NCBI RefSeq assembly: GCF_020171785.1
Contig: NZ_JAIVAE010000020.1
Location: 1-49,054 of the forward strand
Length of the DNA stretch: 49,054 nt
Direction: 5' to 3'
Source: Guptibacillus hwajinpoensis
Lineage (GTDB): Bacteria; Bacillota; Bacilli; Bacillales; Guptibacillaceae
A program made the position numbers and the translations under genes. Positions within the stretch are counted from its first letter, which is position 1, and the number at the start of each line of letters is the position of its first letter. The notes beneath the pieces were generated by a model. The model was not told the DNA's origin. It saw nothing but the letters and a program-made list of their open reading frames with translations, and ran no database searches. This document shows positions 4,631 to 48,943 of the stretch, in pieces.

Positions 4631-4662
4631 AGTCCTGGTGCCAGGCACCGGGACTATTTTTC
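4631..4662 (+). terminator. Attenuating terminator built on the GGTGCCAGGCACC repeat
   Basis: Arms 4631-4642 and 4644-4655 (AGTCCTGGTGCC/GGCACCGGGACT) pair with one T-G wobble and are followed by ATTTTTC. The centre is the core of the dispersed repeat (4637-4649). It lies between the binding-protein gene and the permease genes, so it likely lowers read-through. Confidence 0.8.
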
Positions 4663-4687
4663 AATACATAAAGCAAGGAGTCATCCT

Positions 4688-5740
4688 ATGTCAAAGAAAG
4701 CTGAACCGACGGCAAAACCAATAGAAAATCAGCTCGCTGTTCAATCGCGACCTGTTACAGCGATGCTCATTCTTGTTGCAGGTAGTGCTGCCCTCGTCTT
4801 GAGCTTGGGACTATCGGTCGCACTTGGAGCGGCAGATATTAAGTTGATGACAGTTTGGCAAGCGATTTTTCAATTTGATGCCACCTCAACCGAACATTCC
4901 ATCATTCGTGAGTTTCGAATGCCTCGCTCAGTTGCCGACATCTTAATTGGCGCAAGTTTTGCAGTAGCTGGAGCGATCATGCAGGGAGTGACTCGAAATC
5001 CTCTTGCAGACTCGGGGTTACTTGGTTTAAATGCTGGGGCAACCTTGATGATTGCGCTTAGCTTTGCCTTTTTCCCCGGACTTTCCTATACCAACCTGAT
5101 GTTATTTTCTTTCGTTGGTGCTGGGATTGGGGCTGGACTTGTATTCGGTATCGGTTCTCTCTCTCGAAATGGACTATCACCGATTCGTTTAGTCCTAGCA
5201 GGGGCTGCGGTTAGTGCACTTTTTACCGCAGTTAGTGAAGGCGTTGCCATCTATTTTCAACTCTCACAAAATCTTGCCTTTTGGTTTGCGGGAGGAACAG
5301 CTGGTTTGAAATGGCCACAAATTCAAATTTTATTGCCGTGGATCGTGATTGCGCTTATTGTGGCACTGTTTCTTTCAAAGTCGATTTCGCTACTCAGTCT
5401 TGGGGAAGATGTGGCTGTAGGTCTTGGGCAGCGCACAAAATTAATCAAAGCGCTTGCTTCGGTTGTTGTACTCGTGCTTGCAGGAGCTGCCGTATCAGCA
5501 GTTGGTCCAATTGGGTTTGTAGGTCTTGTGATTCCTCATATTGCGAGGTTTCTTGTCGGTGTGGATTACCGATGGATTGTTCCATGCTCGGCGGTTCTTG
5601 GAGGGTTATTTATGATTGTTGCTGACATGGGAGCAAGGCTGATTAATGCCCCATATGAAACGCCAATTGGGGCGATTTTCGCTCTTGTCGGTGTCCCTTT
5701 CTTTCTATACGTAGCGAGACGTGAAGGGAGGGAGCTGTGA
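4688..5740 (+). CDS. FecCD-family siderophore permease subunit 1
   Basis: One of two membrane subunits carrying the ferric siderophore inward. The 350-residue protein has about nine or ten membrane segments after a hydrophilic N-terminus of roughly 25 residues. FecCD signatures include REFRMPRSVADILIGASFAV, GAIMQGVTRNPLADSGLLG, and the ATPase-coupling loop region VGPIGFVGLVIPHIAR. ATG has AAGGAG upstream. It overlaps the next gene by one base (TGATG), so the two are translationally coupled and probably made in equal amounts. Confidence 0.93.
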   Translation: MSKKAEPTAKPIENQLAVQSRPVTAMLILVAGSAALVLSLGLSVALGAADIKLMTVWQAIFQFDATSTEHSIIREFRMPRSVADILIGASFAVAGAIMQGVTRNPLADSGLLGLNAGATLMIALSFAFFPGLSYTNLMLFSFVGAGIGAGLVFGIGSLSRNGLSPIRLVLAGAAVSALFTAVSEGVAIYFQLSQNLAFWFAGGTAGLKWPQIQILLPWIVIALIVALFLSKSISLLSLGEDVAVGLGQRTKLIKALASVVVLVLAGAAVSAVGPIGFVGLVIPHIARFLVGVDYRWIVPCSAVLGGLFMIVADMGARLINAPYETPIGAIFALVGVPFFLYVARREGREL

Positions 5741-6774
5741 TGAATGTTGACTCTTTATTTCACGTACAGCGGAAAAGAAATCGCAGGCGCTATGTGATGA
5801 TGGGTATTTTCCTATTCCTTATCATTGCGACCTTTTTTATTAGCTTAAATACAGGGTTAACGAAATTAAGTCCTAGCGAGGTCGTGAAAACGTTGTTTGG
5901 CAGTGGCACAGAGAAGCAGTCGTTAATTTTATTTGAATTTCGCTTGCCTCGAATCGTTATTGCCATCCTTGTTGGCGCCGGGTTAGCGGTATCTGGCTGT
6001 ATCCTTCAAGGGATTTCACGTAATGCTCTTGCAGATCCGGGTATACTCGGAATCAATAGTGGGGCTGCTTTAATGGTTGTTCTATTTATCTCCTTTTTCC
6101 CGAAAACGACGGATGCCCCTATTCTCCTTATGCCTTTTCTAGCGTTAATAGGCGGGTGTGTTACAGCAATCGTCATTTATGCGCTTTCGTACAGCAAAAG
6201 AGAAGGGTTAATGCCTCAGCGATTGATATTAAATGGGATTGCGGTCGCTGCCGGGATTAGTGCTCTTATTACCATCTTAACGCTTCGAATGGATCCGTTC
6301 GACTATCAGTTTATCGCTGTTTGGCTTGCGGGAAAGATCTGGGGGACAACGTGGGTTCATGTGCTCACGTTACTGCCATGGATCTTCGTTTTATTTGCAT
6401 TGATCTTCTATAAAGCAAGAACGCTAGATGGATTGAATTTTGGGGAGAAACTCGCGACCGGAATGGGTGTGAAAGTAGAAAAAGAGCGTTTCTTACTTCT
6501 GGGCGCTTCGGTCGCACTTGCATCCGCTTGTGTGTCTGTAAGTGGAGGAATTGGTTTCGTTGGTCTTGTTGGTCCCCATCTTGCACGACAGTTAGTCGGA
6601 AATGATCACAGATTCCTTTTGCCATTATCAGCTCTCGCAGGTGGACTTGTGCTTTTAGTAGCGGATACGATTGGTCGAACGATTCTAGCACCATCTGAAA
6701 TTCATGCTGGTATTATGGTAGCGATTATCGGAGCACCGTACTTTTTATATTTACTTGCTAGAGCAAAAGCTTAG
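5740..6774 (+). CDS. FecCD-family siderophore permease subunit 2
   Basis: Second membrane subunit, 344 residues with multiple membrane segments. Family motifs: FEFRLPRIVIAILVGAGLAV, GCILQGISRNALADPGILG, and GGIGFVGLVGPHLARQLVG near the C-terminal third. The ATG at 5740 is preferred over an in-frame GTG at 5737 because GGGAGGGAG is only two bases from the GTG. It overlaps the stop codon of subunit 1. Confidence 0.93.
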   Translation: MNVDSLFHVQRKRNRRRYVMMGIFLFLIIATFFISLNTGLTKLSPSEVVKTLFGSGTEKQSLILFEFRLPRIVIAILVGAGLAVSGCILQGISRNALADPGILGINSGAALMVVLFISFFPKTTDAPILLMPFLALIGGCVTAIVIYALSYSKREGLMPQRLILNGIAVAAGISALITILTLRMDPFDYQFIAVWLAGKIWGTTWVHVLTLLPWIFVLFALIFYKARTLDGLNFGEKLATGMGVKVEKERFLLLGASVALASACVSVSGGIGFVGLVGPHLARQLVGNDHRFLLPLSALAGGLVLLVADTIGRTILAPSEIHAGIMVAIIGAPYFLYLLARAKA

Positions 6775-6786
6775 GAGGCGAATGAT

Positions 6787-7788
6787 ATGAAGAATGAAAT
6801 TTATGATGTGACGATCATTGGTGGAGGGCCAATTGGGTTATTTACAGCTTTTTATAGCGGCATGCGTGAGCTTAAGACGAAAGTTATTGAATACCTTCCG
6901 CAAGTTGGTGGGAAGGTAACCTACTTCTATCCAGAGAAAATTCTACGAGATATCGGTGCGATTCCTGGCATTTCCGGAGCAGATTTGATCAAACAGCTTG
7001 AAGAACAGGCGAGCACATTTGATCCAACAATGGTGTTTGGGGAAAGAGTAGACGATCTTGAGCGAGCTGAGGACGGAACCTATATTTTAACGAGTCATAA
7101 TGGAGAAAAGCACTTTACTCGGACCGTTATTTTAGCTATTGGACATGGGACGCTTGGGGTGAAAAAGCTTCCAGTTGATGGAGCGGAGTATTTTGAAGGG
7201 AAGAATCTTTATTATGCCGTGGATCGTGTGGAAAGCTTCAGGGGTAAGCACGTTCTGATTTCTGGAGGAGGCGATTCGGCAATCGATTGGGCGAATCGTC
7301 TTGAACCTATCGCAGATAAAGTAACGATTGTTCATCGCAGAGAGGCTTTTAGTGGTCATGAAAGTAGTATCACAGAGATGAACAACTCGGAAACACACAT
7401 CAAATGTTCGTGCTATGTATCTGACGTGATTGGTAAGGAGCGTATTGATAAGGTTGTTCTTACTCATGTCGACACAGGTGAAAAAGAAGTAGTTGAAATC
7501 GATGCCCTCCTTGTTAATCATGGATTTAATCTCGACTTAGGCGGCATCCAAAACTGGGGAATGACGATGAACGAAGGAAAAGTCGTTACGGATGCAAAAA
7601 TGGAAACGAGTATACCTGGAATTTTTGCAGTAGGAGATATCGTCACCTATCCACATCGTTTAACGCTCATTGCTGGCGGTCTTGCGGAAGGACCAAAAGC
7701 ATTGAATAGTGCGAAGGCCTATCTAGATCCTGAGGCAGAAGCCATGGCGATGTATTCGACGCACCATAAAGATTTTGTAGAAGTATAA
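6787..7788 (+). CDS. Ferredoxin/flavodoxin-NADP+ reductase, YumC/YcgT type
   Basis: FAD-dependent, thioredoxin-reductase-like ferredoxin-NADP+ oxidoreductase. The 333-residue protein has an N-terminal FAD dinucleotide fold (TIIGGGPIGLFTAFYSG), a central NADPH fold (LISGGGDSAIDWANRLEP, then IVHRREAFSGHE), and a C-terminal FAD contact (GIFAVGDIVTYPHRLTLIAGGLAEGPKALNSAKAYLDP). The CxxC of thioredoxin reductases is absent, as in YumC. It sits 12 bases after the permease gene and just before the ATPase gene, with a good AGGAGG site. That placement suggests it supplies electrons to reduce imported ferric siderophore in the cytoplasm; this is inferred from context. Confidence 0.88.
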   Translation: MKNEIYDVTIIGGGPIGLFTAFYSGMRELKTKVIEYLPQVGGKVTYFYPEKILRDIGAIPGISGADLIKQLEEQASTFDPTMVFGERVDDLERAEDGTYILTSHNGEKHFTRTVILAIGHGTLGVKKLPVDGAEYFEGKNLYYAVDRVESFRGKHVLISGGGDSAIDWANRLEPIADKVTIVHRREAFSGHESSITEMNNSETHIKCSCYVSDVIGKERIDKVVLTHVDTGEKEVVEIDALLVNHGFNLDLGGIQNWGMTMNEGKVVTDAKMETSIPGIFAVGDIVTYPHRLTLIAGGLAEGPKALNSAKAYLDPEAEAMAMYSTHHKDFVEV

Positions 7789-7806
7789 GCGAAAGGAGTG
7801 AGCGTC

Positions 7807-8592
7807 ATGATTGAAACAGAAAATCTTAACATCGGTTATCAAGAAAACATCATTGTGGATCAGTTGAATCTAACCATACCCGAGGGTGAGATTACGGCTC
7901 TTGTTGGGGCGAACGGATCAGGAAAGTCGACCATTCTTAAAACGCTATCTAGATTAATGAAGCCAAAAAGTGGAACGGTTTACCTGGATGGACGGGCGAT
8001 TCATGAGCAAAAAACGCGCGACCTTGCGAAAGAATTAGCAATCCTTCCTCAAAACCCCACCGCTCCAGAAGGGCTAACGGTTTTAGAACTTGTCACATAC
8101 GGTCGCTTTCCTCATCAAAAAGGCTTGAAAGCGCTCACGATGGAAGACAAAGAGAAGATTGCCTGGGCAATTGAAATGACGGGGATTGGGGAATTTGCCA
8201 ATCGTTCGATTAATCAACTTTCAGGTGGACAGCGCCAGCGCGCCTGGATTGCGATGGCTCTTGCTCAGGATACGAAAATTCTATTCCTTGATGAACCAAC
8301 TACTTTCCTCGATATGGCGCATCAGCTTGAGGTACTTGAGCTTTTGCAAAAGTTAAATGTTCAAGAAAAGCGAACGATCGTCATGGTCGTGCATGATTTA
8401 AATCACGCCAGTCGGTACGCAGGTCATATAGTAGCAATTAAAAAAGGAAAAGTAATGAAAACAGGGACGCCACTCGAAGTGATGAAGTCAGACACTTTAG
8501 AAGAAGTGTTTGGGGTTCGAAGTGATATCATTTATGATCCTCGCTCGGGGCAGCCACTTTGCTTACCGTATGGACTTTGTGCAAGTCTATGA
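7807..8592 (+). CDS. Siderophore ABC transporter ATPase
   Basis: Cytoplasmic ATPase of the FecE/FhuC/YusV type that powers the two permeases. The 261-residue protein has Walker A (GANGSGKST), Q-loop (LPQNPTAPEG), signature LSGGQRQRAWIAMALAQD, Walker B (ILFLDEPT) and switch histidine (MVVHDLNHASRY). ATG 7807 is preferred: an in-frame GTG at 7798 touches the AAAGGAG site, whereas the ATG has normal spacing. It is the last gene of the operon, closed by a terminator. Confidence 0.94.
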   Translation: MIETENLNIGYQENIIVDQLNLTIPEGEITALVGANGSGKSTILKTLSRLMKPKSGTVYLDGRAIHEQKTRDLAKELAILPQNPTAPEGLTVLELVTYGRFPHQKGLKALTMEDKEKIAWAIEMTGIGEFANRSINQLSGGQRQRAWIAMALAQDTKILFLDEPTTFLDMAHQLEVLELLQKLNVQEKRTIVMVVHDLNHASRYAGHIVAIKKGKVMKTGTPLEVMKSDTLEEVFGVRSDIIYDPRSGQPLCLPYGLCASL

Positions 8593-8605
8593 AATGTCGA
8601 ATTAA

Positions 8606-8636
8606 CTTGCTCCTTATAATGGAGCAGGTTTTTTTG
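8606..8636 (+). terminator. Terminator of siderophore operon
   Basis: CTTGCTCC (8606-8613) pairs with GGAGCAGG (8621-8628), followed by seven or more T. Confidence 0.88.
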
Positions 8637-8712
8637 TGGAAGGATCATCTTCTTTTCTAGCGAATACATAAGACAAACTCGTATCTAGATCGACCGTTCA
8701 TAGGAGGATGTC

Positions 8713-9141
8713 ATGATTAAGGAAATGAAGACGAAGCAACAGTGGCTTGAAGCATTTCAAGTGATGCAAGAGCTTCGCCAGCATTTGGATGAGAAAACTT
8801 ATCTTGATTTAGTAGAAGAAGCTAATCAGAAAGACATGTATCGACTATATGCGCTTTATGATGGAGATGAACTTGTTGCGGTTACTGGATTTAAGCCAAT
8901 GATTACGCTCTACTATGGAAGGTTTGTCTGGGTTTGTGATCTTGTCACTAGCGAACAGCATCGTTCAAAAGGTTATGGAGAAATGCTTCTTACGTTTGTT
9001 GAAAACTGGGCTCTGGAGAACGGGTATCAATCTGTGGCTCTGTCTTCCGGTGTTAAAAAGAAAGAAGCCCACCGTTTCTACAAAGAAAAGATGTCTTATG
9101 ATCAGGTTAGCTTTGTATTCAAAAAGGGATTAACTCTGTAG
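8713..9141 (+). CDS. GNAT-family N-acetyltransferase
   Basis: Transfers an acetyl group from acetyl-CoA to an unknown amine. The 142-residue protein has the GNAT core: strands around [17 protein letters not shown], and motif A in [20 protein letters not shown], where RSKGYG is the Q/R-x-x-G-x-G/A pyrophosphate loop. [11 protein letters not shown] and HRFYKEKM form the C-terminal fold. TAGGAGG lies upstream. It is a single gene; the substrate is not predictable. Confidence 0.88.
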
Positions 9142-9215
9142 AAGCATGATCTTCACTTATAGCTGTTGCCTGGTGCTATACTTAGTGCAAGACAAATGAA
9201 GGATGTGGCGTAACA

Positions 9216-10181
9216 GTGAGAAGACTAGGTCAAACAAATTATGAGATTTCGCCAATCGGACTTGGAACATGGCAGTTCAGTCAGGGGAGCGGCTTAATTG
9301 GCAGTTACTTTTCGACGATATCTGAAAAAGATATGGACGCGATTGTGAAAATGAGTCTTGATGGTGGGATTAACTGGTTTGATACAGCAGAAGCTTATGG
9401 AAAAGGAAAATCAGAAGAAGCCTTATCTGGCGCGTTAAAACGACTTGGGGTTGAAGAAAAGGATGCCCTTATTGCGACAAAGTGGTGGCCACTTCTTCGA
9501 ACAGCTAGTTCTATTCCAAGCACGATCCAAAAGCGAAAAGATGCCTTACATGGTCGGCGAATTGACCTTTATCAGGTGCACCAGCCGTTTTCTTTTTCTT
9601 CTCCAGAAAAAGAAATGAAGCAAATGGCATCGCTCGTCAAAGAAGGTCATATTGGCGCAGTGGGTGTGAGTAATTTTAATCGAGATAAAATGGATCGAGC
9701 GATTCAAGAGTTGAAACGGCAGGGTGTGAATCTTGCATCAAATCAAATGAAATATAGCTTACTCGATCGACGAATTGAAACGAACGGTGTGCTGGACCTT
9801 GCTAAGCAAAATGGGGTCACGATCATTGCGTATTCTCCGCTTGAGCAGGGGATTTTAACAGGAAAGTTCCATCAAAATCCTGAACTAGTCGCAAATCTCT
9901 CAGGTCCACGTAAACACATGTCGCACTTTAAACCGCAGGGGTTAGCGAAAACTATGCCGTTAATCGACTTGTTAAAAGAGATAGGTCATTCATACGGCGT
10001 CGGAGCCGGTCAAGTTGCGTTGAACTGGCTCGTTCATTTTCACGATCAAACGGTTGTGGCAATTCCGGGCGCATCCAAGTTAAAACATGCCGAAGATAAT
10101 GTGAAGGTACTTGGGTTTAAGCTTACGCATGAGGAAATGAAGCGAATTGATGAGGAGTCAAGGAAAGTAGCGAAGATGTAA
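9216..10181 (+). CDS. Aldo/keto reductase
   Basis: NADP(H)-dependent oxidoreductase of 321 residues with a TIM-barrel fold. Catalytic tetrad candidates: Asp and Tyr in WFDTAEAYGKGKSEE, Lys in IATKWW, His in LYQVHQP. C-terminal cofactor elements are AYSPLEQGILTGKF and VAIPGASKLKHAEDN. It begins with GTG (9216) at the family N-terminus (RRLGQTNYEISPIGLGTW) behind AAGGATG. It resembles the AKR11/YhdN-like group; the natural substrate is unknown. Monocistronic with its own terminator. Confidence 0.9.
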   Translation: MRRLGQTNYEISPIGLGTWQFSQGSGLIGSYFSTISEKDMDAIVKMSLDGGINWFDTAEAYGKGKSEEALSGALKRLGVEEKDALIATKWWPLLRTASSIPSTIQKRKDALHGRRIDLYQVHQPFSFSSPEKEMKQMASLVKEGHIGAVGVSNFNRDKMDRAIQELKRQGVNLASNQMKYSLLDRRIETNGVLDLAKQNGVTIIAYSPLEQGILTGKFHQNPELVANLSGPRKHMSHFKPQGLAKTMPLIDLLKEIGHSYGVGAGQVALNWLVHFHDQTVVAIPGASKLKHAEDNVKVLGFKLTHEEMKRIDEESRKVAKM

Positions 10182-10186
10182 AGGAA

Positions 10187-10222
10187 TTAAAGCCGCAATC
10201 CACTCAGGTTGCGGCTTTAATC
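10187..10222 (+). terminator. Terminator of aldo/keto reductase gene
   Basis: 14-nt arms TTAAAGCCGCAATC and GGTTGCGGCTTTAA (10187-10200 and 10207-10220), one wobble. The 3' tail is only moderately T-rich. Confidence 0.75.
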
Positions 10223-10366
10223 TGCTATTCTTTTTCTACTCATTCTCTGCACGTCGTTAGGTTTATAATTAAACATTAATCGATAATATGTACCAAATAG
10301 AAGCGAATAGTGGGAACTTTCCATTTAAGTCATACGTAAAACGAGTAGGGAAAGGAGAGATTGCAT

Positions 10367-10864
10367 ATGGAAACTCGACCACGAATTGAGGTTGATAAGA
10401 CGTTCATTCAAAAAGGGTTTGATTTGGCGACACTTATATTTCTTTTGCTAAGCATCGTTTATCTTTCTTTGGAATGGGCGGGCATACCTAATCGCGTTCC
10501 CATCCATTTTAATGCAACTGGTGAAGCGGATAATTGGGGTTCAAAAATGGCGATCATTCTTTTCCCACTGCTTGGTATGTTGATCTGGGGAGTTTTCACT
10601 GTTCTTGAACGTTATCCGCATAGGTATAATTATGTGGTGAAAATCACAGAGGGCAATGCAGCTCTACAATATCGAAGTGCCGTTATCCTCATGCGTTTTT
10701 TGAAAAATACGATCGCGCTTTTGTTTGCTTATTTAACAGTGGAATGTGTGCAGATTGCTAAGGGGATTGGGGAAGGTCTGACTTGGTGGGTGATGCCACT
10801 CTTTCTTACGATGATCTTTAGTGCGATTATTCTTTATATTGTGCATTCGATTAGATGGAGATAG
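10367..10864 (+). CDS. DUF1648-domain membrane protein
   Basis: A 165-residue protein with about four membrane segments. The N-terminal part contains the DUF1648 pattern: a hydrophobic helix followed by LPxHFNxxGEADxWGSK, here RVPIHFNATGEADNWGSK. DUF1648 occurs in SdpI-type immunity proteins and many uncharacterised Firmicute membrane proteins; no killing-factor genes are nearby. The ATG at 10367 has AAAGGAG at good spacing; an in-frame TTG at 10361 is less likely. Function unknown. Confidence 0.8.
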   Translation: METRPRIEVDKTFIQKGFDLATLIFLLLSIVYLSLEWAGIPNRVPIHFNATGEADNWGSKMAIILFPLLGMLIWGVFTVLERYPHRYNYVVKITEGNAALQYRSAVILMRFLKNTIALLFAYLTVECVQIAKGIGEGLTWWVMPLFLTMIFSAIILYIVHSIRWR

Positions 10865-10989
10865 AAAATAATCTGTGAAAGCTTTTAGTGGAAAAAGTAA
10901 AGCGCATACAGGTGAAATTCGTGAACATTTCGATGATTTTTCGATAAAAATCCAAAAAAAATCTACAGAAATTGCCCTTCTGTGTATGG

Positions 10990-14047: not shown

Positions 14048-14084
14048 AAAGGCGCAGTGGAGAAAATCCACTGCGCCTTTTTTC
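14048..14084 (+). terminator. Terminator of YtkA-like lipoprotein gene
   Basis: Near-perfect arms AAAGGCGCAGTGGA and TCCACTGCGCCTTT around a GAAAA loop, followed by T. Confidence 0.9.
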
Positions 14085-14103
14085 GACATTTATTGAGCTC
14101 AAT

Positions 14104-14121
14104 CGGGTGGTGACAGGCACG
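14104..14121 (+). repeat. Dispersed GGTGACAGGCACC repeat, copy 2
   Basis: CGGGTGGTGACAGGCACG, last base changed from the consensus C. It abuts the stop codon of the convergent HAD phosphatase gene at 14123. TCGACATTTATTGAGCTCAAT precedes it on the plus strand, fitting the family's TTCGACA-type left flank. Confidence 0.85.
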
Positions 14122-22048: not shown

Positions 22049-22095
22049 TTCGACATATGCTGACAATAGTTCGGGTGATTCGGGTAGTTTCGGGT

Positions 22096-22107
22096 GGTGC
22101 CTGTCAC
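22096..22107 (-). repeat. Dispersed repeat, copy 3 (core inverted)
   Basis: GGTGCCTGTCAC, the reverse complement of the common core. Its left flank still reads CGGGT on the plus strand, as in plus-oriented copies, so the core alone appears flipped. TTCGGGTGATTCGGG lies just upstream. Confidence 0.8.
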
Positions 22108-22188
22108 TCGCATGAGATATACTTGGTGACGCGGACACGGTCGGGAAGCGCTCGGTATGCGGTGACGCGGTTTTCGCGTTTTTTTCGC

Positions 22189-22200
22189 GGTGCCTGTCAC
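22189..22200 (-). repeat. Dispersed repeat, copy 4 (core inverted)
   Basis: Second GGTGCCTGTCAC core, 93 bases after copy 3 and in the same orientation, just before the Gfo/Idh gene. The DNA between is GC-rich with repeated GGTGACGCGG-like strings. Confidence 0.8.
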
Positions 22201-22237
22201 TTGTCGAATTTGTTGAATGAATTGGAGGAAGATTAGT

Positions 22238-25336: not shown

Positions 25337-25688
25337 TATCCACTCCTTTCAATTACAATTATTGGTTCCCAGTAAGCGTTTTATTCAAACGAAGTCAAAA
25401 GTTGTGTTTTTTTATGAGGAGATGGAATGAAGGAAGATCGTCTTAGGACAATTCGGATGTTTTTTTCTAACCTAAAGATTTTCATCATGATCCCAGGGTA
25501 GTCATGGTGATTTTCTTTGAGGGGCAAACGTCCCAGTTGCGGTACGATGTGTTCATTTCTTAAATGAATGCCTCATCTATCTAGATCCTATCGTTCAGTC
25601 CCTCTACTACTATCTTGAGGAGGAAACTGGTATACTATCCAACAAGGTGACAAATTGTGACAAATTACGGGAGGTGACAGGCACCAAC
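25337..25688. other. Intergenic region before zinc-type dehydrogenase
   Basis: About 350 bases. An extended -10 (TGGTATACT, about 25628-25636) lies 53 bases before the start codon. GTGACAAATTGTGACAAATTA (25647-25667) leads into the dispersed repeat at 25668. No gene or other structure recognised. Confidence 0.45.
25668..25685 (+). repeat. Dispersed repeat, copy 5, acting as ribosome binding site
   Basis: CGGGAGGTGACAGGCACC differs from the family CGGGTGGTGACAGGCACC by one T to A change, which creates GGGAGGTGA, a near-ideal Shine-Dalgarno sequence. The start codon is three bases after the repeat. No other RBS is seen for the gene. Confidence 0.75.
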
Positions 25689-27252: not shown

Positions 27253-27340
27253 TTTTGGAAGATGTAATGAGTTATGGTTATTAATCGTGTTTAATAAGTT
27301 CAGATTTATTCGACTATAATTGACGTTTTTCGAGCAAAAG

Positions 27341-27358
27341 CGGGCGGTGACAGGCACT
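27341..27358 (+). repeat. Dispersed repeat, copy 6
   Basis: CGGGCGGTGACAGGCACT, preceded by TTTTTCGAGCAAAAG. It has two differences from the common CGGGTGGTGACAGGCACC. Confidence 0.85.
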
Positions 27359-27458
27359 CGCGCATTTTCTTAAATGCGAATTAACCCATCCTTAAAAGAA
27401 ATTGGTTTTATTGCTTATTCAAACGGGTAACATCATTCGAGTGAATTCGAGTAAATGT

Positions 27459-27475
27459 GGGTGGTGACAGGCACC
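27459..27475 (+). repeat. Dispersed repeat, copy 7
   Basis: GGGTGGTGACAGGCACC, 118 bases after copy 6 and in the same orientation, about 85 bases before the GntP permease start. The two copies fill most of the 340-base gap before the permease; nothing else recognisable lies there. Confidence 0.88.
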
Positions 27476-29688: not shown

Positions 29689-29773
29689 AGTTAAGTCCTC
29701 CTTAAGTATAAGTAACTCAGCTCTTAGGATACCCAATTCTGCTCAAGATATTTCGATTTCATTCGACGCATAT

Positions 29774-29791
29774 CGGGTGGTGACAGGCACC
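29774..29791 (+). repeat. Dispersed repeat, copy 8
   Basis: Full CGGGTGGTGACAGGCACC preceded by TTCGACGCATAT, between the 3-hydroxybutyrate dehydrogenase promoter region and the BCCT terminator. Confidence 0.9.
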
Positions 29792-29802
29792 GTTAAACCA
29801 TT

Positions 29803-29836
29803 AAAAAGGCCCTCTCCCCGAAGGGGAGAGGGCCTA
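29803..29836 (-). terminator. Terminator of BCCT transporter gene
   Basis: Perfect 13-bp arms (29807-29819 and 29823-29835) with a GAA loop; T-run on the minus strand side. Confidence 0.92.
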
Positions 29837-35658: not shown

Positions 35659-36138
35659 GTGTTTACTTTAAGTGATATTCCTATGTTTTTTGTGAATTTC
35701 TTTATTATTCTTCCGATCGTAACATTGGTGCATGAGGCTGGACATGTGCTCGTAGCGAGATTATTTGGGGGAAGGATCAAATTCTGCATAGGTACTGGGA
35801 AGAAAATGATCGATATTGGTCCATTGGAGGTGCGAAAGAAATATTTCATGGAAGGATGGTGTCAGTACGATAGGTTAACTTACGATAAAACGTGGGCGCA
35901 TGTGTCGATTTATCTAGCGGGCAGTATGTTTAATTTAATTCTTATTCTGATCATTAACTATCTGATTTTGACAGAGGTGCTGCCAGAAGCTCTAGTATTT
36001 AGGCAATTTGTTTATTTCTCTTTCTACTTCATTTTCTTTTCTTTAATGCCTTATAAAAACGAAGACGGGAAGCCAAGTGACGGCATGGCAATCTATGACG
36101 TCATACGCTATGGGAAAGCAGAAGACCCAATCGACTAA
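35659..36138 (+). CDS. M50-like membrane metallopeptidase
   Basis: A 159-residue membrane protein of the site-2 protease type. The first helix carries the zinc motif HEAGH (VTLVHEAGHVLVARLFGG); a later segment KPSDGMAI fits the Asp-Gly third-ligand region that is NPDG in many relatives. Three or four membrane segments, shorter than typical SpoIVFB/RseP and without a PDZ domain. GTG 35659 is 6 bases after GGAGG. It could be a small intramembrane protease; the substrate is unknown. Confidence 0.8.
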   Translation: MFTLSDIPMFFVNFFIILPIVTLVHEAGHVLVARLFGGRIKFCIGTGKKMIDIGPLEVRKKYFMEGWCQYDRLTYDKTWAHVSIYLAGSMFNLILILIINYLILTEVLPEALVFRQFVYFSFYFIFFSLMPYKNEDGKPSDGMAIYDVIRYGKAEDPID

Positions 36139-36147
36139 CTTCGACAC

Positions 36148-36180
36148 AAAGCGGGCGGTGCCAGGCACCGCCCGCTTTTC
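36148..36180 (+). terminator. Terminator made from the GGTGCCAGGCACC repeat (copy 9)
   Basis: Perfect 15-bp arms (36148-36162 and 36164-36178) whose centre is the repeat core GGTGCCAGGCACC (36157-36169), then TTTTC. It sits between the M50 gene and the convergent VOC gene and can serve both. TTCGACACAAAG precedes it, as in other family copies. Confidence 0.88.
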
Positions 36181-41524: not shown

Positions 41525-41566
41525 TCGAAAGCGGAAGCGCAGGAGCGCTTCCGCTTTCGACTTTTT
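41525..41566. terminator. Terminator after sulfatase-like gene
   Basis: Perfect 16-bp arms (41525-41540 and 41545-41560), AGGA loop, then CTTTTTG. Confidence 0.95.
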
Positions 41567-41577
41567 GTGACAAATAG

Positions 41578-41595
41578 CGGGTGGTGACAGGCACC
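41578..41595 (+). repeat. Dispersed repeat, copy 10
   Basis: Full CGGGTGGTGACAGGCACC preceded by TTTGTGACAAATAG. It follows the terminator directly and is trailed by a short tandem of CTGCTCGA units (about 41607-41633). Confidence 0.92.
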
Positions 41596-42954: not shown

Positions 42955-42977
42955 ATATTCACCCTATATCACAAACT

Positions 42978-43994
42978 TTATGACTTTTCATTTTTCCTTG
43001 TAGCGACGGAATTTCTTTCCACGAGATGTCCTTCTACCGTTTTGATTTGTGACTGGTCAAGCGAGCCACCGATAAGTTTAAATAAAAACTGGATTGTAGC
43101 CTCTACCATCTCGTTTATAGGTTGGTGCCAGGTTGTTAAAGAGTAGGAGGGCCAATTTGCCATTTTTACATTATCAAATCCAATGACCGAGATCTCTTCT
43201 GGAATGCTAATGCTTTGCTTTTTTAAATAATCCATCGCCCCAAAAGCTGAAATATCATTCGCGACAAATATAGCATCGATCCTCTTCTTTTGAGCGAGTA
43301 GATTCTTTGCAGCGTTAAACCCGCCTTCATAAGTATACTTACCGTTTTCAATTAAAAAAGAGTCAATTCCAGATTCTTTCAACGACTCAGCAAAACCAAA
43401 TTGACGATCAATACTCGTAGAAGTATTTTCGTGTCCAGATATAAAAGCCAGGTGTTTGTGTCCTTTCTTTAATAAATATTGGCCAATTTCCTTACCAGCA
43501 ACAAAATTATCACATACGACTGCATTGCTTTTTGTGTGAGTTGCATAGCGGTTGAAAAGCACGACAGAAATTCCATTACGACTGAATTTTTCCACGGCCT
43601 TTGAGGTTAATAGAGCATCAGTAATGATGATACCTTCAACACTATATTCAATTAAATGCTGAACTTCATCTTCCTGAATTTCATCATTTCGTGAATGAAT
43701 AAACATGACTTGATAACCCTTATTAGCTAACATTTCATGAAATAATTTTAGTATCTCAGGATAGAATGGATTTTCAATATCTCTCATAACGATTCCAATA
43801 ATCCGAGATTGGTTTGTAATGAGGCCTCTAGCTATGGCATTAGGCTGATATCCTAATTTTTCAGCAGTTTCTAATATTAACTGCTTCTTTTTAGAAGAAA
43901 TACTAGTATTCTTACTGAAAGCTCTGGATACGCTCGATTGTGATACCCCAGCCAATCGAGCGACGTCCATAGCTGTTACTTTTTTGTTTTTCAT
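42978..43994 (-). CDS. LacI-family transcriptional regulator
   Basis: A 338-residue repressor-type regulator. The HTH is VTAMDVARLAGVSQSSVSRAFS, followed by the hinge AEKLGYQPNAIARGL. The periplasmic-binding-like ligand domain includes IIGIVMRDIENPFYPEILK, GIIITDALLTSKAVEKF and PEEISVIGFDNVKMA. It lies 52 bases after the dehydrogenase gene and 23 bases before the permease gene. Two copies of TTTGCATACGTATGCAAA lie upstream of the operon and are its probable operators. Confidence 0.92.
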   Translation of the reverse strand: MKNKKVTAMDVARLAGVSQSSVSRAFSKNTSISSKKKQLILETAEKLGYQPNAIARGLITNQSRIIGIVMRDIENPFYPEILKLFHEMLANKGYQVMFIHSRNDEIQEDEVQHLIEYSVEGIIITDALLTSKAVEKFSRNGISVVLFNRYATHTKSNAVVCDNFVAGKEIGQYLLKKGHKHLAFISGHENTSTSIDRQFGFAESLKESGIDSFLIENGKYTYEGGFNAAKNLLAQKKRIDAIFVANDISAFGAMDYLKKQSISIPEEISVIGFDNVKMANWPSYSLTTWHQPINEMVEATIQFLFKLIGGSLDQSQIKTVEGHLVERNSVATRKNEKS

Positions 43995-44046
43995 TTGACT
44001 TCCTCCTGCCTGTTATCGACAGGGAAATTATATCAAATATTACGCT

Positions 44047-45330
44047 TTATTGCTGTTTGTTACCGTAGCGTCTTACCCGTAAATCCGCCTGAGCTTTGTG
44101 ACCTTTAAATCCTTCAAGGTCGCAAAGACGTGAAGCATATTCTCCAATATGCGCACTTGCTTCAGGAGTGACTCTTTGATAAGTACAGGTTTTAAGGAAT
44201 TTTCCAACCCACAATCCACCTGTATAACGTGCTGCTTGTTTCGTTGGTAGCGTATGGTTCGTACCAATCACTTTGTCTCCATATGCAACGTTTGTCTCTG
44301 GACCAAGGAATAATGCACCGTAGTTTGTCATGTTATCAAGGAAGTATTCCGGATCCTCTGTTAGTACTTCTACATGCTCGTAAGCTAATTTATCCGCTTC
44401 TACTACTGCTTCTTCTAAAGTATCAACAAGTAAGATTGATCCATAATCTTTCCATGCTGCCTCAGCCACATCCGCTGTTGGGAGAATTTGTAGTTGACGT
44501 TCAATTTCTTTTTCTGTTTCATTTGCCAATTTTCTTGAGGTGGTAATCAGTGCTGCAGGAGAATTTGGTCCATGTTCTGCTTGGCCGAGAAGGTCTGTTG
44601 CAACAATTTCTGCATCGGATGATTCATCCGCAATAACAAGAACTTCTGTCGGTCCTGCAAAAAGGTCAATGCCTACACGGCCAAACAGTTGTCGCTTCGC
44701 TTCCGCGACAAAAGCATTACCGGGTCCGACAAGCATATCTACCGGTTCAATTGTTTCTGTGCCAATTGCCATGGCACCCATTGCTTGAATACCACCTAAA
44801 ATGTATATTTCGTCTGCTCCAGCTAGATGCATAGCCGTTACTGTAGCGGCAGGGATCTCTCCTTTAATTGGAGGGGTACAAGCAATGACGCGTTTCACTC
44901 CTGCAACTTTAGCCGTTAAAATGCTCATATGGGAGGAAGCAACCATTGGATATCGACCACCTGGGATATAGCAGCCAACACTGTTAACAGGAATATTTTT
45001 ATGCCCAAGAAATACGCCAGGTTGAGTTTGAACTTCAATATCGCGAAGAGAATCTTTTTGGTGTTCAGCAAAGTTTTTTATTTGTTCTTGTGCAAATCTA
45101 ATATCGTTGACAACTTGTTCTGGAACAGAGTTTACAATTTCGTTAATTTCTTCATCAGAAAGTCTAAAACGCTCAGGGGACCACTTATCGAATTTCTCAG
45201 ATAAGTTTCGAACTTCTTCATCACCTTTGGCCTCAATATCAGCAATTACTTTGCTAACGGATTCTCTAACTTTAGTGTCAGCTTCTTGTACATCTTGAGG
45301 ATTTCTACCTTCTTTAAGAAAAATAGCCAA
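44047..45330 (-). CDS. HisD-like dehydrogenase, HpsN (sulfopropanediol 3-dehydrogenase) type
   Basis: NAD+-dependent, zinc-dependent oxidation of a diol-type alcohol to acid in the histidinol dehydrogenase fold, 427 residues. Zinc and catalytic residues are seen: Gln and His in [17 protein letters not shown], Glu-His in LAYEHVEVL, Asp in [15 protein letters not shown], and a C-terminal His in [11 protein letters not shown]. No his genes are near, and GTNHTLPT followed by [15 protein letters not shown] resembles HpsN, which turns (R)-2,3-dihydroxypropane-1-sulfonate into sulfolactate. TTG start with GGAG upstream. First gene of the operon. Substrate assignment is an inference. Confidence 0.82.
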
Positions 45331-45363
45331 TTATCTCACTCCATTTCAATTAGTTAAATCTGA

Positions 45364-45381
45364 TTTGCATACGTATGCAAA
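45364..45381. promoter_or_regulatory. LacI-type operator 1
   Basis: TTTGCATACGTATGCAAA, a perfect 18-bp palindrome 34 bases upstream of the dehydrogenase start. CG at the centre is typical of LacI/GalR operators. Confidence 0.8.
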
Positions 45382-45463
45382 AATGGTCAAAAAATAAAGC
45401 CCTTAGAATAAAAAGTAATTTTTATAAAGATCAAATCTTTCTTTACATGTCTAAATGAAAGGG

Positions 45464-45481
45464 TTTGAATACGTATGCAAA
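45464..45481. promoter_or_regulatory. LacI-type operator 2
   Basis: TTTGAATACGTATGCAAA, 17 of 18 bases identical to operator 1 and exactly 100 bp from it, which suggests cooperative binding or looping. Confidence 0.78.
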
Positions 45482-45494
45482 ACCTATTATAAAA

Positions 45495-45508
45495 TGTAAG
45501 CGCTATTT
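45495..45508. promoter_or_regulatory. Possible cre-like site
   Basis: TGTAAGCGCTATTT matches TGWAANCGNTNWCA at all but the last two positions. Carbon catabolite control of the operon is possible but weakly supported. Confidence 0.35.
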
Positions 45509-45582
45509 TTTCAACCATTAAATTCAGAATAGTTAAAAGTTTGGTTGCAATTTATCTCTATTCTACAAATTGTGACAAATAG

Positions 45583-45600
45583 CGGGTGGTGACAGGCACC
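45583..45600 (+). repeat. Dispersed repeat, copy 11
   Basis: Full CGGGTGGTGACAGGCACC preceded by AAATTGTGACAAATAG, nearly identical to copy 10 over the whole left flank. It lies in the 516-base gap between the LacI-controlled operon and the MdaB-like gene; the rest of that gap (45601-45846) has no recognisable gene. Confidence 0.92.
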
Positions 45601-45846
45601 ACTGTGAACTAGGTCTAAATACTTATCTTTTTCGACCAGGAAAACCTCTATTATGGTTAGGTTACCTTCCTTTATCGAGACTTTACACCTATATAAAAGT
45701 AATTAAATGGATTTTAAATACGACCAAAGACACGCACTGAAAAGTTCCATACGCACCAGGAAGTAATAATTTTCTCGCTTTAATAGTTCATTTCATTAGA
45801 TCTATACTATGAAAGAAATCGAGCAGCTAGAAAGGTGTGAAGATAC

Positions 45847-46398
45847 ATGAAAAACATTCTACTTATCAATGGACATGAGTATTTTCCGAAGTCGAAAGGT
45901 GAGTTGAACAAAACGATCTTTGAGGAATGGAAAGAGGTGCTCTCTTCAGACTATGAAGTGAAAACAACAATCGTCGATGAAGAATACGATGTTGAGCAAG
46001 AAATCGAGAAGTGGCAGTGGGCTGATGTGATTATCATGCAAACGCCGATTTACTGGTTTAGTATCCCAGGTAACTTTAAGAAATACATCGATCGCGTCTA
46101 TATGGACAAGATCTTCTTCATCGGATCAGATCGCTATGGTCAGGGCGGAATGTTTACAGATAAGAAATACATGTTGTCTCTTACTTGGAACGCACCTGAG
46201 GCAGCGTTTGGAAATGAACAGAGCTTCTTTGAAGGACGAGATCTTGATCAAGCGATCGATCACCTTCACAAGATGAACCAATATATCGGTATGCGTCCGC
46301 TACCAACTTACTCCATTCACAATGTGATGAAGGAAACAAATATGGCGCACTATAAAACGAAACTTCACGATCATTATCGCGAAGTGTTTGGTAAATAA
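45847..46398 (+). CDS. MdaB-like NAD(P)H quinone reductase
   Basis: Flavodoxin-fold FMN/FAD quinone reductase, 183 residues, protecting against quinone or redox stress. Motifs: ILLINGHEYFPKSKGELNK (phosphate loop region), VIIMQTPIYWFSIPGNFKKYIDRVY (isoalloxazine contact) and MLSLTWNAPEAAFG. These match E. coli MdaB closely. RBS AAGGTG. It precedes an aldo/keto reductase gene by about 80 bases. Confidence 0.9.
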   Translation: MKNILLINGHEYFPKSKGELNKTIFEEWKEVLSSDYEVKTTIVDEEYDVEQEIEKWQWADVIIMQTPIYWFSIPGNFKKYIDRVYMDKIFFIGSDRYGQGGMFTDKKYMLSLTWNAPEAAFGNEQSFFEGRDLDQAIDHLHKMNQYIGMRPLPTYSIHNVMKETNMAHYKTKLHDHYREVFGK

Positions 46399-46478
46399 AA
46401 CACGCTTTCCACAACGGGATGGTTTAAAATTGATTTTTCGGGAAAACCATTAAAGGACATTTGAAAGGAGCATGTAAC

Positions 46479-47318
46479 ATGACTGTACAAACAAAAACAT
46501 TAAACAACAATATTGAAATGCCTGAACTAGGTTACGGCGTATTCCGCGTTGAACAAGGTCAAGAATTGGTTGAAGCGGTGAAAACAGCAATTAAGAAAGG
46601 CTATCGTAGCATTGATACAGCAGCAATCTACGGTAACGAGGAAAGTGTTGGTCAGGGTGTCAATGAAGCGATTAAGGAAGGTCTTGTCACAAGAGAAGAG
46701 CTTTTCATTACTTCAAAAGTATGGAACGATGGCCTTACTTACGATGAAACGATTGAAGCGTATGAAACAAGTCTTTCTAAACTAGGTCTTGACTACCTCG
46801 ATCTTTACTTGATTCACTGGCCTGGCGATAACAAATACCAGGAACCGTGGAAAGCACTTGAAACACTATATAAAGAAAAACGCGTACGTGCGATTGGCGT
46901 AAGTAACTTCCAGGTTAACCACCTTGAAGATCTTTGCAAAAACTTTGAAATTACACCTGTGATTAACCAAATCGAGTTCCACCCGCGTTTAACACAGGAA
47001 GAAGTAAGAACGTATTGCGAAGAACACAACATTCAAGTGGAAGCATGGTCACCACTGATGGCAGGAGAATTGTTAGATAACGAAACAATCGCCGGAATTG
47101 CAGAGAAATATAACAAGTCCGTAGCGCAAGTGATTCTTCGCTGGGATCTGCAACATAACGTGATTACCATTCCAAAATCAATGAACGACAAGCGCATTGA
47201 AGCAAATATCGATCTTTTCGATTTTGAACTCACTTCAGAAGAAATGAAGCAGCTGGATGCATTGAATGACAATGCTCGTAGCGGCCCACACCCTGATGAA
47301 TTTGATTTTAAAATGTAA
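46479..47318 (+). CDS. Aldo/keto reductase, YvgN/2,5-diketogluconate-reductase type
   Basis: NADPH-dependent aldehyde reductase, 279 residues. Tetrad: Asp and Tyr in SIDTAAIYGNEESVG, Lys in FITSKVW, His in YLIHWPG. The C-terminus IPKSMNDKRIEANIDLFDFELT contacts NADPH. Similar B. subtilis enzymes detoxify methylglyoxal. ATG 46479 has GAAAGGAG upstream; an in-frame TTG at 46461 lies before it. Two terminators follow. Confidence 0.93.
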   Translation: MTVQTKTLNNNIEMPELGYGVFRVEQGQELVEAVKTAIKKGYRSIDTAAIYGNEESVGQGVNEAIKEGLVTREELFITSKVWNDGLTYDETIEAYETSLSKLGLDYLDLYLIHWPGDNKYQEPWKALETLYKEKRVRAIGVSNFQVNHLEDLCKNFEITPVINQIEFHPRLTQEEVRTYCEEHNIQVEAWSPLMAGELLDNETIAGIAEKYNKSVAQVILRWDLQHNVITIPKSMNDKRIEANIDLFDFELTSEEMKQLDALNDNARSGPHPDEFDFKM

Positions 47319-47326
47319 GATCTTTG

Positions 47327-47362
47327 AAGAAGGGCTGCAACCTGATGCAGTCCTTCTTTTTG
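47327..47362 (+). terminator. First terminator after aldo/keto reductase gene
   Basis: 13-nt arms AAGAAGGGCTGCA and TGCAGTCCTTCTT with one wobble, then TTTTTG. Confidence 0.88.
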
Positions 47363-47370
47363 AATACGCA

Positions 47371-47397
47371 AGCCGGTCCCGCCATGGGACCGGCTTT
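47371..47397 (+). terminator. Second terminator after aldo/keto reductase gene
   Basis: Perfect arms AGCCGGTCCC and GGGACCGGCT followed by a T-run, 9 bases after the first terminator. Confidence 0.92.
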
Positions 47398-47482
47398 TTT
47401 TCGTTCTTAAAAATTTATTTTCCCCGCAATGCCCCTTTTTCCACTTTTCAATCGATATATAGGGTGAAAGGAGGTGATCAGC

Positions 47483-47701
47483 ATGGCAACCTCATCCCTA
47501 ATGGAAACGCAGCTTCGCATGGTACTTGAAGTAGGCGTGGACGAAAACGGTAAATCGATTTTCCGCAGCAAGAACTTTAACAACGTGAAAACATCCGCTA
47601 CGCCTGATGCGCTTTTCGCAGTCGCACTAGCGCTAGCACCGCTTCAGCAGCACAATTTGTTCGCCGTTGAGCGCAATGATTCGTCTGATCTTCAGGCGTA
47701 A
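47483..47701 (+). CDS. DUF1659 family protein
   Basis: A 72-residue small protein (METQLRMVLEVGVDENGKSIFRSKNFNNVK...DALFAVALALAPLQQHNLFAVER) matching DUF1659, found widely in Bacilli and usually followed by DUF2922 and YvrJ genes, as here. AAGGAGGTGATC precedes the ATG, an unusually perfect RBS, so it should be highly translated. Function unknown. Confidence 0.85.
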   Translation: MATSSLMETQLRMVLEVGVDENGKSIFRSKNFNNVKTSATPDALFAVALALAPLQQHNLFAVERNDSSDLQA

Positions 47702-47738
47702 TTAGTTTCCAAATGATGAAGAAAGGAGGAAAACCGAC

Positions 47739-47957
47739 ATGGCAAAAACACTCGAACTTCAGTTCAACACGCGTGACAATAAGCCGTTCTCGATCACGTT
47801 AAGCGATCCAGTCGAGCCCGTAAATCCGGCTGCAATTGCCGCTGCGATGGATACGCTCCTTGCACAAAACTGTTTTACAACAAGCGGAGGCGACCTTGTT
47901 TCCAAAAAAGGCGCACGTATCATTGAGCGCAATGAGAACGACATTATCATCGGTTAA
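47739..47957 (+). CDS. DUF2922 family protein
   Basis: A 72-residue small protein (KTLELQFNTRDNKPFSITLSDPVEPVNPAAIAAAMDTLL...LVSKKGARIIERNENDIII) matching DUF2922, a predicted small beta-sheet and helix protein. AAAGGAGG upstream. Second gene of the DUF1659-DUF2922-YvrJ set, 37 bases after the first. Function unknown. Confidence 0.87.
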   Translation: MAKTLELQFNTRDNKPFSITLSDPVEPVNPAAIAAAMDTLLAQNCFTTSGGDLVSKKGARIIERNENDIIIG

Positions 47958-47965
47958 TGGATTGA

Positions 47966-47997
47966 AAAGAGGAAGGGCACTTGTCCTTCCTCTTTAG
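47966..47997 (+). terminator. Weak hairpin between DUF2922 and YvrJ genes
   Basis: AAAGAGGAAGG pairs with CCTTCCTCTTT; only three T follow, so it probably reduces rather than stops transcription into the YvrJ gene. Confidence 0.6.
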
Positions 47998-48030
47998 CAA
48001 GGCAACTAAACGAACAGGGAGGGTGACCGA

Positions 48031-48192
48031 ATGGAGTCCTGGATGTCTCTCATCAGCGATGTTGGCTTTCCAGTTGTGGTGACGCTTTACTTGCTACACC
48101 GCATTGAGCAGAAGCTCGATACGCTGAACGATACCATACTGCAGCTGCCAGATCATTTAAACGCTCGAAGTTCGAATCAAAAAACAGGGTGA
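48031..48192 (+). CDS. YvrJ family membrane peptide
   Basis: A 53-residue protein with one N-terminal membrane helix (SLISDVGFPVVVTLYLLHRIEQKLDTLND), the YvrJ family pattern. GGGAGGG precedes the ATG. Third gene of the small-protein set. Members of this size (about 45-60 residues) are often missed by gene callers. Function unknown. Confidence 0.85.
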   Translation: MESWMSLISDVGFPVVVTLYLLHRIEQKLDTLNDTILQLPDHLNARSSNQKTG

Positions 48193-48323
48193 TCTCTGTA
48201 AAAAAAGAAGAGAGGGTTCGCTAAGTAAGCCCTCTCTACCATACATAAGTCTCAACTAACTTCATATCGACCAGCGGCTTCCTAACTCTCTTTCTAAATT
48301 TGGAGATGGTGAGGTTTCTTTCA

Positions 48324-48646
48324 GTGCGCCGCTAATCAGAACGTGGAATGCCTACCACACGTTCGAAAACAAAACTTGTCAGGTGAGCTGAAGCCGATGC
48401 AGAAAATTCAGCGTTCTCCATCAAACACAGTTCCCGGTTTCTGTGGTGAGAAGCTATGGCGTGAACGGCCGTTAACGGTTCGGGTAGGTAACCAGGCGTA
48501 CTACGGTACGGTAGCAGCGCGCAGATGGCGCACATTGGGCTGGTTTGATGTGTAGAAAGCGTGCTGTTGAAGAAATTCAAGCGTTCAAATCGGGTGATAC
48601 GGTGGAAACCTCAGAAGGTCTCAGTATACTTCAGTCGAAAGGACGG
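48324..48646 (+). mobile_element. Probable group II intron remnant (5' RNA domain only)
   Basis: Opens with GTGCG, the conserved 5' end of group II introns, followed by a hairpin (AACGTG...CACGTT), TTCGAAAACAAACTTGTCAGGTGAGCTG and TGTGGTGAGAAGCTATGGCG, the type of sequence seen in domain I of bacterial introns. No reverse transcriptase ORF and no AGC...GTTC domain V are seen. Short open frames here (for example 48343-48555) are the kind often annotated inside intron RNA. Identification rests on recall of intron sequences, so it is tentative. Confidence 0.5.
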
Positions 48647-48647
48647 C

Positions 48648-48690
48648 TACTTTTACAGCGCTGATGTTTTTTGTCAGCGCTGTAAAGGTA
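48648..48690. other. Long hairpin with T-rich loop
   Basis: An 18-bp arm pair (CTACTTTTACAGCGCTGA and TCAGCGCTGTAAAGGTAG) with one mismatch and a loop of TGTTTTTTG. It directly follows the intron-like region. No T-run follows, so it is not a standard terminator. Confidence 0.7.
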
Positions 48691-48756
48691 GTCATTCTCT
48701 GTCCAATGTTTCCTATCTGATCTAGTGCCTTCAGCGGTTCAAGAGCAAAACAGCAT

Positions 48757-48820
48757 AAGAGCAAGAAGATAAAGAGAAAGAAAGAGAAAGAAAGATAAAG
48801 AGAAAGAATGAGGAAAGTGA
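48757..48820. repeat. Purine-rich GAAA-type low-complexity tract
   Basis: About 64 bases of irregular AAAGAGAAAGAAA units with no pyrimidine-rich breaks. No coding or regulatory role can be assigned; replication slippage origin is likely. The rest of 48691-48930 shows no gene. Confidence 0.6.
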
Positions 48821-48930
48821 TAGGGGGCTTGGGAGAGCGGGTCAGAGTTTGACGTTAGGGTTTGATATGAAAAGTACAATCAATTACCTTATAAAGCCTG
48901 CCATGATTTTTGACATTAAGTAACAATATT

Positions 48931-48943
48931 CGGGTGGTGACAG
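48931..48943 (+). repeat. Truncated dispersed repeat, copy 12
   Basis: CGGGTGGTGACAG, identical to the family consensus up to its 13th base, then the sequence changes to TGGTTGACCCCC, where an IS-like end begins. Confidence 0.8.

Follow-up and report, generated by a model that had tools for sequence, protein, structure and literature searches.

The 49,054-nucleotide stretch analyzed here (the window) is an entire contig, C20 (NZ_JAIVAE010000020.1), of the Guptibacillus hwajinpoensis assembly GCF_020171785.1, a 4.24-Mb genome in 35 contigs (G000, the source genome). It carries a dispersed family of short intergenic repeats, a copy of which also lies in the leader of a transposase gene elsewhere in the genome. 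An earlier note, made from the window alone, had claimed twelve near-palindromic copies, and the family is indeed real. Matches to the core GGTGMCAGGCACC with up to two mismatches number 18 on both strands of the window, against 0.64 expected (palindromic sites counted twice), and an 18-mer of the repeat, allowing three mismatches, gives 9 matches against 0.00 expected (36157 counted twice). Matches to CGGGYGGTGACAGGCACY with at most one mismatch number 39 in the source genome, eight of them inside the window where 0.45 would be expected, and 14–48 per genome in all 14 genomes of the genus (491 in total, with no control matches). On records of close relatives of the transposase the genus is named Pseudalkalibacillus, and some records stand under Bacillus or Alkalihalobacillus.

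Ten of the twelve listed sites are retained as members: 14109, 22096, 25673, 27346, 27463, 29779, 36157, 41583, 45588 and 48936. The core is exact at seven of the twelve (4637, 25673, 27463, 29779, 36157, 41583 and 45588), has one mismatch at four (14109, 22096, 22189 and 27346) and is broken off after eight bases by an insertion sequence (IS) at 48936; CGGGN adjoins the palindrome at ten. The other two claimed copies do not stand, 22189 being a remnant and 4637 a terminator-like hairpin without the flank. The coordinates given earlier were a blend of core starts and starts of the CGGGT extension (14104 is CGGGT, 14109 the core), and 22096, described as inverted, carries its flank on the opposite side, so that it is in plus orientation. 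The features of the window are as follows.

4626..4660, no strand assigned: terminator-like hairpin holding GGTGCCAGGCACC, without the flank, judged a non-member
14082..14121, plus: full copy with a TTCGACA box at -20, CGGGT and palindrome; last base G
22064..22108, plus: copy with three TTCGGGT units ahead of GGTGCCTGTCACT, more units than in the orthologue of genome G008
22189..22208, minus: remnant, its palindrome directly abutted by TTCGACA, without CGGGN
25646..25685, plus: full copy ahead of ATG 25689 of a zinc-type dehydrogenase gene; carries CGGGAGGTGA
27319..27358, plus: full copy
27436..27475, plus: full copy with two TTCGAG boxes spaced 10 bp
29752..29791, plus: full copy; orthologous place filled in 11 genomes of the genus, source included
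29789..29804, plus: 8-bp edge duplication (ACCGTTAA ACCATTAA) starting at GGC^ACC; not in G008, G009 or G013
36130..36169, plus: full copy between convergent genes, its palindrome 9 bp longer than in G008, giving a 14-bp stem, then TTTT
41556..41595, plus: full copy with a degenerate array of ACY-GCTCG units after it
45561..45600, plus: full copy
48909..48943, plus: copy split after the eighth core base by an insertion sequence
48944..49054, plus: end of an IS3-like element within the core; the contig stops inside the element

The element is an oriented unit of ~40 bp in which TTCGACA boxes, phased at 10 bp, are followed by CGGGN and the terminal palindrome GGTGACAGGCACY. Its layout is TTCGACAAAT, an optional second 10-bp box (e.g. 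nnTGACAAAT or TTCGAGnnnn), nnCGGGN and then the palindrome. In 130 copies with the CGGGN flank, the zone of high information spans about -27 to +12, with a drop on either side; core and CGGGN served to pick these copies, which in part builds in the conservation of their columns but not that of the boxes. Foot positions -5 to -2 read C, G, G and G at 95–100% per column, under a selection that had demanded CGGGN within one mismatch. Wherever TCGACA occurs within 60 bp of CGGG in the genus (96 occurrences), the spacing takes one of two values, 11 bp in 19 cases and 21 bp in 77. Among 64 copies outside the genus, spacings of 11 (44) and 21 (11) were recorded, with 20, 50 and 61 once each. The shared left flank described earlier is real and sharply bounded. 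The three outcomes that the earlier note had named as refuting were checked and not seen: numbers greatly exceed chance, the flanks align well past the 13-bp core, and genes are poor in copies.

The foot differs from that of well-studied repetitive extragenic palindromic (REP) sequences: the GT[AG]G tetranucleotide was not found at the 5' foot in the 130 flanked copies, and copies of other genera mostly read TTCGGG. As single-stranded DNA a typical copy folds weakly (18-mer, -3.8 kcal/mol, z -1.89; 42-mer, -4.2 kcal/mol, z -0.71) and by these values does not form a stable stem-loop. Strong hairpins with T runs are present at 4637 and 36157 (-10.7 and -19.4 kcal/mol, z -5.75 and -6.60). By inspection, without a systematic count, copies look mostly single rather than paired and inverted (BIME/REPIN), and at this level the comparison with bacterial interspersed mosaic elements that had been drawn finds no support.

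A REP-associated tyrosine transposase (RAYT) flanked by copies had been suggested as a check, and one was found outside the window. The source genome contains four matches to the family Y1_Tnp, and the gene at position 13703 of contig C6 has a repeat copy in its leader, 147 bp upstream, and lies within a cluster of copies. Its product scores 48.8 bits against Pfam Y1_Tnp (cut-off 23), and all 29 aligned sequences, a paralogue among them, keep the HxH motif and Tyr119. The top match of its AlphaFold model (pLDDT 88.9) is PDB 4er8, the structure of a RAYT in complex with a REP hairpin (E 5e-8, TM 0.76 by target length), which is also the best match of the sequence itself (E 9e-4). Orthologues (63–100% identical) are present in all 14 genomes, and in 12 of these a copy is located 144–186 bp upstream, in one orientation. 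At eight loci compared, the palindrome is the border of the conserved RAYT leader, and the flanks upstream of it differ between genomes. In the two closed genomes, copies crowd around the gene: 18 of 43 copies in G009 lie within 50 kb of it (1.0 expected), as do 11 of 40 in G008 (0.9 expected). A RAYT in the same genome, a copy in its leader, the clustering and the recurrence of the pairing in other genera together support the REP-type affinity proposed earlier.

Other RAYT genes in the genus have palindromes of their own. A paralogue that is 45–49% identical to the main RAYT (L083–L086, L092) is preceded by larger palindromes of the GGGGGTCAGG..CCTGACCCCC type, and one at 38% identity (L094) by a palindrome of the GGGACA..TGTCCC type. 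These observations suggest one separate repeat family per RAYT in the genomes of the genus. As exact patterns, the palindromes of the paralogues were not found in the window.

Relatives of the RAYT that are 51–62% identical were found in Heyndrickxia, Virgibacillus, Cerasibacillus, Ornithinibacillus, Fredinandcohnia, Cytobacillus, Oceanobacillus, Neobacillus and others; of the 80 RAYT loci kept, those examined were L146–L169, with L170–L225 (at most 42% identity) left out. Repeats near these genes follow the same plan, typically TTCGACAAAnTTCGGG followed by a varying palindrome, GGTGACAGGCACC, GCGTCACTGTGAC or GGTGTCAGACACC; the palindrome changes from locus to locus and the flank is constant. 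A copy is present within ~3 kb at 15 of the 16 Bacillaceae loci outside the genus (L154–L169) and within 500 bp at nine, and at four of them (L155, L157, L158 and L163) the RAYT is enclosed by inverted copies whose palindromes face outward. At L166, of Neobacillus piezotolerans, five near-identical copies lie upstream of the gene, the nearest three spaced 84 bp. A sample of the order, 299 genomes from 116 genera, has the flank alone in 47 genomes and 35 genera (243 matches against 15 in the control); its exact order-wide form was absent from the 11 genomes of the genus searched, where the box reads nnCGGG. A family-level search, covering one genome outside the genus (G014, from the sole other genus of the family), gave no copy. 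The top RAYT match of that genome is 49% identical. There the RAYT match at L080 has GGTGCCAGGCACC/GGTGCCTGGCACC palindromes on both sides, and the 18-mer repeat is absent.

The palindromic edge of the unit is hypervariable. Tandem duplications, mostly of 7–11 bp, abut the palindrome, and with at least seven of nine bases repeated they occur at 12 of 41 copies in the source genome, at 9 of 20 copies of G009 and at 7 of 16 of G005, where shuffled sequences give 3.7–5.4% (3.5–5.5% with G004 and G008 included). Control positions farther right and on the left side are near chance. Among 129 distinct contexts, 21 have exact duplications (1.9 expected); core base 10, GGC^AC[CT], is the starting point of 13 of them, six of the 13 being in the source genome. 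When six zones are compared, similarity is lowest just past the palindrome in 18 of 21 genome pairs. At 29779, a site common to 11 genomes, this stretch differs in both length and sequence; the source has the 8-bp duplication listed above, and G007 has a different, longer one, indicating that duplication events recur. Outside the genus, 10 of 60 copies show edge duplications (3.2% by chance), compared with 5 of 60 in the left control (chance 4.6%) and 3 of 60 in the right control (chance 5.8%). CGAA is enriched ~three- to fourfold just past the palindrome, and TTCG as a universal start of the duplicated units was not retained: by eye, it held for ~7 of 12 units. The duplications would be left either by a site-specific RAYT nick or by palindrome-driven slippage, and their common breakpoint would favor the nick.

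Both closed genomes contain a second cluster of copies on the other arm, to which the window corresponds by orthologous spacing in G008, and their terminus halves are poor in copies (6 of 43 in G009, 7 of 40 in G008). Retention is long. The core is identical at 12 of 12 bases in 179 of 241 orthologous locus comparisons, with left surroundings 64–93% identical by genome pair; in some pairs core identity is poor (0 of 7 identical for G004–G008). Occupancy at orthologous sites is 432 of 433 pairs, a figure drawn from overlapping pairs and from stretches selected for holding copies; for both counts, loci and genome pairs are non-independent and comparisons were run in both directions. Since a single candidate empty site was found among the 433 pairs, no insertion footprint or target duplication can be read. 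This, together with the confinement of duplications to one edge, does not support a classical miniature inverted-repeat transposable element (MITE), where the earlier note had considered a MITE-like one. An orientation set by the replication fork, suggested by strand switches between contigs, was rejected, as the same absolute strand prevails on both arms of the two closed genomes (G008, 17 plus and 3 minus on R, 15 and 5 on L; G009, 16 and 2 on R, 18 and 7 on L). Origins were placed from DnaA and termini from a dif-like pattern, which gave no match in 4 of the 14 genomes. Taken by themselves, runs of neighboring copies on one strand do not reach significance in G008 (P 0.14), and in G009 they are borderline (P 0.05).

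Copies are depleted in genes, in agreement with the intergenic placement claimed earlier. In the fetched stretches, the core midpoints of 14 of the 130 flanked copies fall inside kept open reading frames (ORFs) of at least 100 aa, against a coding fraction of 0.80; 11 of these 14 are no more than 80 bp from an ORF end, two are at distances of 167 and 179 bp, and one lies 980 bp inside. The last, a full copy outside the window (L038:6811), sits in a 680-aa ORF matching Peptidase_S9 and beta-propeller families. The sole copy in the window flagged as within an ORF, 25673, is located before the likely ATG of an over-extended ORF. Its CGGGAGGTGA, found 8–11 bases ahead of the ATG in the source and six other genomes, is a putative Shine-Dalgarno sequence for ATG 25689 and may serve in that role; the G004 counterpart reads CGGGT and has a separate GGAGG closer to the ATG. 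The copy at 36157 has its long stem and T run in the source genome and not in G008.

The core is also the target of an insertion sequence that we read as IS3-like. Its end was found in six places among the 14 genomes (L226–L231; four in the source, two in G010), each time after the eighth core base and in different repeats, and all four source copies lie at contig ends. This single target site explains the truncated copy claimed at the end of the window (48931; core start 48936). The element's first ORF, which is incomplete and of which G010 shows 103 codons, matches HTH_28 and HTH_Tnp_1. The element is probably REP-specific; REPs are known targets of the IS3-family elements IS1397 and ISKpn1 (sections consulted of PMC1525189). 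In an Rfam scan of the window at gathering thresholds, the sole match was a purine riboswitch (RF00167, 76.1 bits) at 1486–1586 on the minus strand, upstream of ORF 125–1474.

Taken as a whole, the reading that we consider probable is a REP-like family of Gram-positive bacteria that is linked to a RAYT, a Y1 HUH transposase. Copies would derive from the ends of a RAYT unit, and the RAYT would recognize flank and palindrome together and introduce a single-strand nick at the palindromic edge, with GGC^ACY the likeliest position. Rejoining or repair would then have spread copies, many of them close to the RAYT's own gene. Such action would now be rare, with abortive nicks, or the palindrome itself, leaving the 7–11-bp tandem duplications at the edge, and each site would be retained through selection or repeated rejoining.

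Several results weigh against this. No recent mobility is seen at the orthologous sites, the strand bias is equal on both replichores, unlike fork-coupled insertion, and the second cluster has no adjoining RAYT match in G008 or G009. In two of the 14 genomes (L077, L078) the RAYT has no copy by pattern, and the protein's only NCBIfam match, to the RAYT model NF047646, reaches 75.9 bits where the cut-off is 80. G008 (4 of 21) and G004 (3 of 12) show a weak signal of edge duplication. Outside the genus, the palindrome of the copy just downstream faces the RAYT at L156, L159 and L168, contrary to outward ends, and adjacency was counted without control loci, so that in repeat-rich genomes it may arise by chance. 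The element folds weakly, whereas the RAYTs described in the consulted parts of PMC8266576 bind folded single strands, and the strict 10-bp phasing suggests duplex recognition. A bolder version takes up this last point: a Bacillaceae-wide RAYT system would use the helical phasing of the TTCG boxes to read duplex DNA, and the repeats would be stationary, conserved landmarks fixed for the life of a genus, one edge continually gaining short tandem duplications from RAYT nicks and acting as a natural local mutator beside particular genes. We regard this version as doubtful.

The helical phasing of TCGACA ahead of CGGG, the weak hairpin and the retention of cores within less conserved surroundings could also point to sites for a host protein, with a Spo0A-like regulator or nucleoid protein reading phased TTCGACA/TGTCGAA boxes and palindrome, binding selection keeping the copies and the one in the RAYT leader being merely one of them. 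The sporulation 0A box has the consensus TGTCGAA, which the box resembles as a word only. However, the flank is accompanied by CGGG and by a palindrome that varies between genera, copies adjoin RAYTs in many genera and crowd around the gene, and the 28 of 121 copies (classified by neighbor genes) that lie in convergent gaps are near the background of 78 of 356 gaps; we think this explanation unlikely. Copies that are old and immobile, with a core targeted by an IS3-like element, would also be expected of fossil MITEs or of another transposon's ends, the RAYT link then being a hitchhiking accident, and the uncontrolled count of adjacency outside the genus leaves room for this. We give it little credence, given the copies close upstream of 12 of 14 RAYTs in the genus and near 15 of 16 others, the crowding in both closed genomes and palindromes that vary between RAYT loci. 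Intrinsic terminators with a common stem sequence would account for the strong hairpins and T runs at 4637 and 36157, and each of these sites could be a terminator of its own. As an account of the whole family this is refuted and scarcely credible: the typical member is weakly folded, a terminator has no need of a 27-bp conserved flank, 25673 lies just before a start codon, and the G008 orthologue of 36157 lacks the terminator form.

We place the repeats with the known REP/RAYT kind, as a variant built differently from the best-studied REPs. In the sections consulted of PMC6006769 and PMC8266576, canonical REPs combine a GT[AG]G foot with a hairpin; REPs usually number >100 per genome (abstract of PMC2817692). 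Shared with these systems (TnpAREP) are a Y1 HUH protein with HxH and Tyr, copies both beside the gene and dispersed intergenically, and repeats that serve as IS targets. In contrast, the present family has no such foot, a weak palindrome, strictly 10-bp-phased flank boxes, copies that by inspection are mostly single, positions common to species across the genus, a hypervariable palindromic edge and fewer copies (14–48) per genome. The four bracketed loci resemble the TIR-associated tyrosine transposases (TIRYT/TIRtrons) of PMC3733652 in having a RAYT-like gene between inverted copies that are also dispersed. The three loci with inward-facing palindromes differ from these, as does the absence from the present repeats of the GGGGWSAS found in some terminal inverted repeats of the consulted part of that paper; palindromes of the GGGGGTCAGG or GGGGGTCTGG type do, however, precede RAYT paralogues of the genus. 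The repeats of class 2.6 and class 3 TnpAY1 proteins, as covered in the sections of PMC6006769 consulted, likewise do without GT[AG]G and are less strongly structured; class 2.6 is mostly from Bacteroidetes and class 3 from Planctomycetes, Acidobacteria and Proteobacteria, with a CnGA foot, and the likeness drawn here is one of repeat features alone. Another dispersed Bacillaceae repeat, bcr1 of the Bacillus cereus group, is classed among MITEs of 70–300 bp in the consulted part of PMC3733652 and is set apart here by description.

REP/RAYT systems have been described, in the sources consulted, for Proteobacteria, Cyanobacteria, Bacteroidetes and a few other phyla. We found none for Bacillaceae in the open-access literature consulted, although subscription papers, including the Bertels RAYT classification, may hold more. 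No Bacillaceae cases were found among the RAYT-like genes bracketed by terminal repeats in the consulted part of PMC3733652, and the main text of PMC2817692 does not contain the words Bacillus, Firmicutes, Gram-positive, Oceanobacillus or Geobacillus. The flank TTCGACAAANTTCGGG is a simple annotation tag for these repeats in many genomes. If the proposed model is correct, the likely cleavage position would be readable from natural edge duplications ahead of biochemistry, and spore-formers, among which are harmless species that can be cultured, would offer a RAYT whose sites are fixed across species, so that the purpose of such RAYTs could be asked.

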